64,000 bases of DNA from Candidatus Purcelliella pentastirinorum (GTDB lineage: Bacteria; Pseudomonadota; Gammaproteobacteria; Enterobacterales; Enterobacteriaceae), in the NCBI RefSeq assembly GCF_003391335.1, contig NZ_CP028374.1, positions 186,001 to 250,000 of the forward strand, in the 5' to 3' direction. The notes under the pieces were generated by a model. The model did no database searches. It saw only the letters and a list, made by a program, of their open reading frames with translations, and was not told the DNA's origin. How positions within the stretch are numbered: position 1 is the stretch's first letter; the number at the start of each line of letters is the position of its first letter. Both the position numbers and the translations under genes were made by a program. This document shows positions 4,773 through 55,052 of the stretch, in pieces.

Positions 4773-6077
<1,305 letters not shown>

Positions 6078-39031: not shown

Positions 39032-39631
39032 ATGTATAAAAATTTAATAATATCAGAATTGAATTCAGCGGAAAAATTAATAAAAAAATTTAAAATAAAT
39101 AAAAATAATATAAAAATTATACAAAAAATAGCTATTTTAATTGCTAATGCATTTAAAAAAAACAAAAAAATTATATCATGTGGCAATGGCGGATCATATT
39201 GTGATGCCATGCATTTCTCAGAAGAATTAACTGGAATATATAGAAAATACAGATCTCCATATCCTGCTCTAACAATAACAGATGGTGGACACATTACATG
39301 TACTGGAAATGATTTAGGGTATGATAAAATATTTTCTAGATATATCGAAGCAATTGGTAAAAATGATGATATATTATTATGTATATCTACAAGTGGTAAA
39401 TCTGAGAATATTATAAAAGCAATAAAAATGGCAAATTCAAAAGGAATGAAAACAATAGCATTAACTGGTAAAAACAACGGAATAATATCAAAAATATCAA
39501 ATATAGAAATACAAGTACCATATAAAAAATATTCAGATAGAATTCAAGAAATACACATAAAAATTATACACATAATAATTCTTTTAATAGAAAAAGAAAT
39601 GGAAAAATATAATTTTATAAAAAACACTTAA
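39032..39631 (+). CDS. gmhA: Sedoheptulose-7-phosphate isomerase
   Basis: First step of ADP-heptose synthesis for the lipopolysaccharide inner core. The frame opens at 38996, but AAGGA lies before the ATG at 39032, which gives MYKNLIISELNSAE like E. coli and 199 residues (E. coli 192). SIS-domain motifs SCGNGGSYCDAMHFSEELTG (with catalytic Glu) and STSGKSENI, and the catalytic His in RIQEIHIKIIHI, are intact. The later enzyme HldE in this window looks half-decayed. Confidence 0.96.
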   Translation: MYKNLIISELNSAEKLIKKFKINKNNIKIIQKIAILIANAFKKNKKIISCGNGGSYCDAMHFSEELTGIYRKYRSPYPALTITDGGHITCTGNDLGYDKIFSRYIEAIGKNDDILLCISTSGKSENIIKAIKMANSKGMKTIALTGKNNGIISKISNIEIQVPYKKYSDRIQEIHIKIIHIIILLIEKEMEKYNFIKNT

Positions 39632-53556: not shown

Positions 53557-54963
53557 TTAAACAGAATAATTTGTTATTATATTTTGCTTAATATTAAAAT
53601 TTAAAATCTTAATACCATAAGACAAAATTTGCTCATCAGCAATAAATTCATTTTCAGAAAAATTATCATATTTAATCAAAAAATCTGGTAAAATTTCTTT
53701 AATAATGAAATTTAAATTATTATCTTTAAAAGATACAATCCAATCAATATACTTTAAAGAACTTAATAAAAACATACGATCTTTTAAAGTCTGTATTAAA
53801 CTATCTTTATTACTTAATTTATTAATAGAATAGCCATTATTTACAGCAACTATTAAACGATCACCAATACTACTGGCCTTTATTATAAAATTAATATGAT
53901 TGACATGTAAAACATTAAAAACCCCATATATCATAACTATTTTTTCTTTTTGTTTTCTAGATAAATTCACTAAATATTTTAAATAATTAATATCAACAAT
54001 ATTAAAATTATTATCTATTCCAGACATGACATTATTCAATAATTCCAATAAATTTATAGATGAAGTTCTAAATTTACCAACAATAATACCAGCTGCTAAA
54101 TTTGATAAATAACAAGACCTTTCCAAAGAATAACCGCTAGCAAAACTAGTTGCTAAAACAGCAATAACAGTATCACCAGCACCAGTAACATCATAAACTT
54201 TATCAGCAGTAGAACTAAAATTTAATGGATTCTTTCCATTTCTTAACAAAGTCATACCATGTTCAGAACGAGTAATTAATAATCCATATAAATCTAAATC
54301 ATTTAATAATTTAATACCCTTAGTAAAAATTTGAGCATCATCAACACATTTACCGACTACAGACTCAAACTCAATAATATTAGGTGTTAATACAGTTGCT
54401 CCCTTATAACGTATAAAATCAGAACCCTTAGGGTCAATTAGTACAGGTATATTTTTCTTTTTTGCAGCATTAACAATAATATCTATGTCAACTAATGTAC
54501 CTTTACCATAATCAGATATAATTAATACATCATAACAAGATAAAAATTTAATTACATAATCAAAAATCAAATTATTAATATTATTATTTAATTCACTTTC
54601 AAAATCTAACCTAATCAATTGTTGATCTTGAGATAAAATTCTAAATTTAGTAATAGTACTAAAAGATTTTAAAGTAATAAAATTATAAGAAATTTTTGCA
54701 TCATTTAATAATCTTTTTAATATTTGACCATGTTCATCATCACCTATTAATCCAATTAATCTAACTTTAGCACCTAAACTATTGACATTCATTGCAACAT
54801 TAGCAGCTCCACCAGGTATATCTTTAATATCTTTAACATTTAAAATAGGTACAGGAGCATCATTAGCAACAGAATTAACAATACCATAACAATAACGATC
54901 TAACATAACATCACCAACAACCAATACATTAACAGAATTAAAATTTAAGAAAATTGATTCCAT
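53557..54963 (-). CDS. hldE: HldE: heptose kinase domain intact, adenylyltransferase domain eroded
   Basis: Bifunctional enzyme of ADP-heptose synthesis: an N-terminal ribokinase-type kinase and a C-terminal nucleotidyltransferase. GGAG lies eight bases before the ATG at 54963, favoured over the GTG at 54966; 468 residues (E. coli 477). The kinase half is well kept: PGGAANVAMN, LIDPKGSDF, and VTGAGDTVIA with the catalytic Asp. In the C-terminal half the signature TNGVFDxLHxGH reads IYGVFNVLHVNH, VNSDAS reads VNNGYS, KGGDY reads KYDNF, and the terminal GCSTT motif is gone. The second activity is probably lost. Confidence 0.94.
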   Translation of the reverse strand: MESIFLNFNSVNVLVVGDVMLDRYCYGIVNSVANDAPVPILNVKDIKDIPGGAANVAMNVNSLGAKVRLIGLIGDDEHGQILKRLLNDAKISYNFITLKSFSTITKFRILSQDQQLIRLDFESELNNNINNLIFDYVIKFLSCYDVLIISDYGKGTLVDIDIIVNAAKKKNIPVLIDPKGSDFIRYKGATVLTPNIIEFESVVGKCVDDAQIFTKGIKLLNDLDLYGLLITRSEHGMTLLRNGKNPLNFSSTADKVYDVTGAGDTVIAVLATSFASGYSLERSCYLSNLAAGIIVGKFRTSSINLLELLNNVMSGIDNNFNIVDINYLKYLVNLSRKQKEKIVMIYGVFNVLHVNHINFIIKASSIGDRLIVAVNNGYSINKLSNKDSLIQTLKDRMFLLSSLKYIDWIVSFKDNNLNFIIKEILPDFLIKYDNFSENEFIADEQILSYGIKILNFNIKQNIITNYSV

Positions 54964-55052
54964 CACATAAACTCCAAAATAAAATTTTAATTAATAAAGA
55001 AAAATAAATCAATTTTAGAATATTATAATATGAAAATATTGTAAAAATACAC

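Follow-up and report, generated by a model that had tools for sequence, protein, structure and literature searches.

Heptose phosphates are usually treated as intermediates of lipopolysaccharide (LPS) synthesis, and a symbiont gene that would make one of them with no LPS to build raises the question of what the enzyme is for. The gene in question is hldE of a Purcelliella genome (a single contig of 479,855 bp, 21.2% G+C), of which a 64 kb stretch, referred to here as the window, was the starting point. An earlier note on this DNA had described an HldE protein that keeps its kinase half and has lost the adenylyltransferase (AT) signature of its other half, and had offered either an eroding pathway or another use for the sugar phosphate. 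Judging from the sequences, we consider it likely that hldE encodes a working D-glycero-D-manno-heptose 7-phosphate kinase whose fused nucleotidyltransferase domain is very probably no longer catalytic, and that the gmhA-kinase module is kept for a non-LPS purpose.

The two halves of HldE

The features in the window are as follows:
53557..54963, minus strand: hldE, predicted fusion of a heptose-7-phosphate kinase and a motif-less nucleotidyltransferase domain, 468 aa
54031..54963, minus strand: kinase (PfkB/HldA-like) half of hldE, with GAGD and 59 of 63 family-invariant sites retained
53560..53967, minus strand: AT half of hldE, with the HxGH glycine, the K-G-x-x-R-P loop, KGGDY and STT lost, and core residues and both HxGH histidines retained
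39032..39631, plus strand: gmhA, sedoheptulose-7-phosphate isomerase, starting with ATG, intact, 199 aa

The hldE frame is unbroken and lies between cca and ribB, one on each side. It starts with the ATG at 54963, or one codon upstream with the GTG at 54966, and its stop ends at 53557, so that the protein is 468-469 aa long depending on the start and the C-terminal domain is, as previously claimed, of full length and in frame. The protein passes the whole-protein HldE equivalog model PRK11316 (543 bits, cut-off 521), and it has the same length, kinase domain and conserved GAGD as HldE of E. coli and other Enterobacterales. A related-locus search of genome contigs returned one distant Alistipes match and nothing else.

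The kinase half carries an intact DVTGAGD, in agreement with the original reading. It scores 366.6 bits with the NCBIfam model of the HldE kinase half, rfaE_dom_I (TIGR02198, cut-off 345), and retains 59 of the 63 sites that are invariant in 16 full-length HldE proteins. It also matches the structure of HldA (PDB 4e84) at 8e-62. HldA is a standalone kinase, and the symbiont protein resembles it in that no functional adenylyltransferase is attached to the kinase; organisms with HldA carry a separate HldC, whereas the symbiont genome has no HldC. We infer that the kinase still acts on heptose 7-phosphate.

Every change that had been read in the AT half, namely TNGVFDxLHxGH to IYGVFNVLHVNH, KGGDY to KYDNF and the disappearance of GCSTT, is present in the translated open reading frame. 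The HxGH motif reads HVNH, i.e., both histidines stay and the glycine is replaced. The losses at invariant sites (E. coli numbering) include T345I, N346Y, D350N, G355N, D377G, K384S, G385N, R388S, P389L, G432Y, G433D, Y435F, G442A and S463I; Lys431 and most of the core residues are retained. HxGH and the other lost motifs serve in nucleotide and phosphate binding in the nucleotidyltransferase superfamily. The AT half still belongs to the cytidylyltransferase-like superfamily (PF01467, 39.5 bits, cut-off 21), and its score with NCBIfam rfaE_dom_II (TIGR02199) is 99.0 bits, below the cut-off of 181.5. It retains 25 of its 44 invariant sites, compared to 59 of 63 in the kinase half (Fisher p = 7e-6), and its identity to E. 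coli HldE is 0.34 versus 0.50. In the functional HldE proteins compared, the AT half equals or exceeds the kinase half in closeness to E. coli, the largest deficit being 0.01. HldE of E. coli and other Enterobacterales combines the AT motifs with a downstream pathway, whereas the symbiont protein has lost the motifs, fails TIGR02199 and, as described below, has no downstream pathway. The C-terminal domain is most likely a catalytically dead yet still folded appendage; a single-sequence AlphaFold model of it was uninformative (mean pLDDT 35).

The rest of the pathway and the sister genome

The gmhA gene is intact, as had been stated, and its full-length product of 199 aa scores 293.1 bits with PRK00414 (cut-off 265). 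The genome-wide search for gmhB, hldD and heptosyltransferase genes that the earlier note had proposed was run by profile search and tblastn, and all three kinds (the heptosyltransferases as Glyco_transf_9, PF01075) are missing from the genome. Likewise, E. coli K-12 proteins used as tblastn queries found no match in the genome for waaA, kdsA, kdsB or kdsD, for lpxA, B, C, H, K, L or M, or for lptA, C, D, F or G; the sole match to the lpxD query is a weak hexapeptide-repeat similarity. The genome has no separate hldC, and the one PF01467 protein besides HldE is at the ribF locus.

With no enzymes downstream in the genome, neither ADP-heptose nor an LPS core is expected. That ADP-heptose is not made, which had been proposed from the window, is almost certainly correct, with the AT motifs gone, RibF as the only other nucleotidyltransferase of this superfamily, and hldD, gmhB and heptosyltransferases all missing. 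The product had been given as heptose 1,7-bisphosphate or 1-phosphate; because gmhB is missing, the bisphosphate is the expected product and the 1-phosphate is not.

Together with the genome described here, a second genome of the same genus (G001) forms a natural loss experiment. Around gmhA and hldE the two genomes are collinear, and their proteins there share about 89-99% identity. Three open frames of at least 100 aa here are without a good G001 match, and these are gmhA, hldE and a 214-aa BamC/NlpB-like lipoprotein. The lipoprotein gene (contig 454248-454889, outside the window) is the sole intact gene of that size, besides gmhA and hldE, that is missing in G001. In G001, gmhA has been cleanly deleted (the site measures about 124 nt versus 663 here), and numerous stops and indels interrupt hldE, which is a pseudogene. 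The pseudogene retains 32 of 62 invariant kinase sites, compared to the 59 of 63 here, and since the two genomes split the kinase half has lost one invariant residue here versus 27 in G001. In the AT half, G001 has lost 12 invariant residues since the split and the genome here none (binomial p = 2e-4); another 19 invariant-site losses are common to the two. Both genomes have the main AT motif changes, which therefore precede the split. Slow evolution does not explain the few losses here, since the fusA branch to this genome (0.048) is longer than the one to G001 (0.025).

Divergence from G001 at codon positions 1+2 is alike in the two halves (0.244 and 0.223), as would be expected if both are constrained here. 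At these positions, sites with G/C here and A/T in G001 outnumber the reverse by 111:21 in the kinase half and by 32:14 in the AT half, i.e., a G/C retention ratio of 5.3 versus 2.3 (p = 0.05). This base-composition test indicates that the AT-half constraint is real but weaker than that on the kinase half. The AT half here would appear to be partly relaxed, with a partial constraint remaining. The idea that it is freshly decaying in this genome was dropped, because no invariant residue has been lost since the split, although the constraint is only partial.

Other symbionts without LPS

The kinase was surveyed in 392 genomes of the family, and small genomes were then chosen for PF01075, gmhA and HldE searches. 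The AT half is present in all 14 small genomes that have a heptosyltransferase, with its motifs present in those that were read; two have an exceptional layout, with a stop codon between the halves in G094 and the AT half as a separate open frame in G116. An intact AT half is found in 14 of 14 genomes with a heptosyltransferase versus 0 of 21 without one (p = 4e-10, for rows that are not independent). These 21 genomes represent ten genera; gmhA occurs in every one of them, and in 20 the kinase half is unbroken, the exception being G154, whose kinase half is divided between two frames. In most of them the AT half is absent or stop-filled and the open frame measures about 304-340 aa; in the genome here and in G007, G188 and G256 the AT half is degenerate but open. 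HldE of the LPS-less genera g6, g7, g19, g101, g138, g151, g152, g160 and g182 resembles the one described here, in that the kinase and gmhA are kept and the AT half is lost or degenerate; however, in most of them the gene ends after the shorter frame, whereas the C-terminal domain here is of full length. Since other lineages dropped the AT half, the domain is dispensable. In another 17 genomes that lack an intact heptosyltransferase, neither the kinase nor gmhA is intact (one of them, G038, carries nothing more than a weaker gmhA-like gene that may be diaA), and the module is therefore not universally needed by LPS-less genomes.

A full check of the kinase-only genome G224 found no hldD, waaC, waaF, waaA, kds or lpx genes, except for a weak lpxD-like match; its gmhB-like match, at 29% identity, is probably hisB. 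In G006, G007 and G019 a profile search found neither hldD nor gmhB above the cut-offs. On a fusA tree (705 columns, LG+C20), the AT state must have changed four times, and at least three of these changes are forced by well-supported branches. The forced cases are the clade of the genus here with g101-like symbionts, G256 plus G163 adjoining the full-pathway G008, and G007 plus G275. G006 and G155 may be further AT-state changes, and g19, g101, g138, g182 and the genus here may share one LPS-less ancestor.

The dN/dS ratios (NG86) come from LPS-less lineages other than the genus here, in which the compared congener G001 has an hldE pseudogene. For the kinase half they are 0.22-0.26 in g138, 0.20-0.32 in g101 and 0.33-0.35 in g7, and for gmhA they are 0.09-0.38. 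Values this far below 1, with the AT half gone or ruined, indicate that selection continues after LPS loss. Module-keeping lineages also keep 51-61 of the 63 HldE-specific invariant residues. We found no report of gmhA and kinase retention without LPS in the literature searched, which lay outside subscription journals.

The gmhA genes of two genera display some unusual patterns. In three species of g138 (L179, L180 and L181) a shared poly(A) run carries a frameshift, with dN/dS of 0.09-0.16; since both parts are otherwise conserved, the frameshift is probably rescued by slippage. In four species of g6 (L194 and the matches of G187, G274 and G342) gmhA is spread over two frames that overlap at the same position, which could reflect either a frameshift corrected by slippage or an old lesion that the species share.

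Possible uses of the gmhA-kinase module

At least nine other symbiont genera have reached this state and maintain it under selection, which suggests that the half-pathway probably serves a non-surface purpose. Selection that keeps the first two heptose enzymes in several LPS-less lineages would point to an unrecognized use of this sugar branch. Of the two outcomes offered at the outset, another use is the better supported for gmhA and the kinase, given the purifying selection in other LPS-less lineages. Erosion fits the whole module in G001 and, in other lineages, the AT half, but in this genome the relaxation of the AT half is only partial.

Transaldolase is the usual consumer of sedoheptulose 7-phosphate. 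In the scheme that we propose, GmhA would convert this sugar to heptose 7-phosphate, the kinase would use ATP to make heptose 1,7-bisphosphate, and the ATP-consuming step would pull the reversible isomerization by GmhA. Our leading guess, a tentative one, is that the module lets sedoheptulose 7-phosphate flow out of the pentose phosphate pathway, driven by ATP. Deletion of gmhA in E. coli K-12 prevented such an outflow and lowered NADPH (PMC10671730), which indicates that the gmhA-kinase pair can serve as an outlet. Transaldolase is present in most module-keeping genomes, and G001 has neither transaldolase nor the module; this distribution leaves the outflow idea with no clean gene-content prediction and weakens it. 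Transaldolase loss was rejected as the reason for the module, because transaldolase presence does not track it. Neither transaldolase nor pgi is found in this genome or in G001, and tkt, rpe, rpiA and pfkA are retained. It seems rather unlikely that heptose 1,7-bisphosphate or a derivative is an end product with its own job (regulatory, protective or host-exchanged), kept in parallel in several lineages of LPS-less insect symbionts, and we would give a similarly low rank to a second substrate of the kinase as the use of the module.

Plain decay, in which the LPS-heptose genes are lost one by one and hldE and gmhA have no function today but happen to be the last ones left, would fit the loss of both genes in G001 and in G104 (other members of its genus retain them), as well as the ruined AT half in many lineages. 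We regard it as unlikely, however, because the dN/dS of the kinase and of gmhA stays well under 1 in lineages without AT half or heptosyltransferase, and because the kinase half here has largely escaped the losses of invariant residues, both in total and since the split, that the G001 pseudogene has suffered. PfkB-family kinases are often promiscuous and genome reduction favors multi-tasking, which would suit a kinase recruited to another sugar or nucleoside, with heptose 7-phosphate no longer needed. This too is improbable, since gmhA, the maker of the heptose substrate, is retained and lost together with the kinase, and the HldE-specific invariant residues persist. A replacement of phosphofructokinase by the kinase was rejected, because pfkA is present.

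Instead of being dead, the C-terminal domain could also have been remodelled into a nucleotidyltransferase that acts on a new substrate, e.g., as a stand-in for CoaD. Its full-length frame would agree with this, as would the absence of invariant-residue losses since the split, compared to the 12 in G001, and the state of coaD, which is a remnant here and kept in G001. Coenzyme A synthesis is apparently lost here, with coaE also truncated (contig 122282-122452, outside the window) and no match to coaBC in the genome; G001 keeps both coaD and coaE. A CoaD substitute would therefore be without partner enzymes, and the motif changes are common to G001, which has its own coaD. Moreover, the lost motifs are nucleotide and phosphate binders in the superfamily, and the constraint is weaker than that on the kinase, so that we consider remodelling very unlikely. 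Even less credible is that ADP-heptose is still made, by a divergent AT half or another enzyme, for an unrecognized transferase. Both HxGH histidines and Lys431 are retained, but STT, KGGDY and K-G-x-x-R-P are all gone, the AT half scores far under the family cut-off, and the genome has no hldD, gmhB or Glyco_transf_9 protein.

The kdsC gene (Kdo-8-phosphate phosphatase; contig 4970-5494, outside the window) scores 256 bits against a cut-off of 208, and it is retained, here and in G001, despite the loss of kdsA, kdsB, kdsD and waaA. Since the riboflavin-pathway gene yigB is missing from all Purcelliella (PMC12505427), the orphaned HAD phosphatase KdsC is a candidate to replace it.
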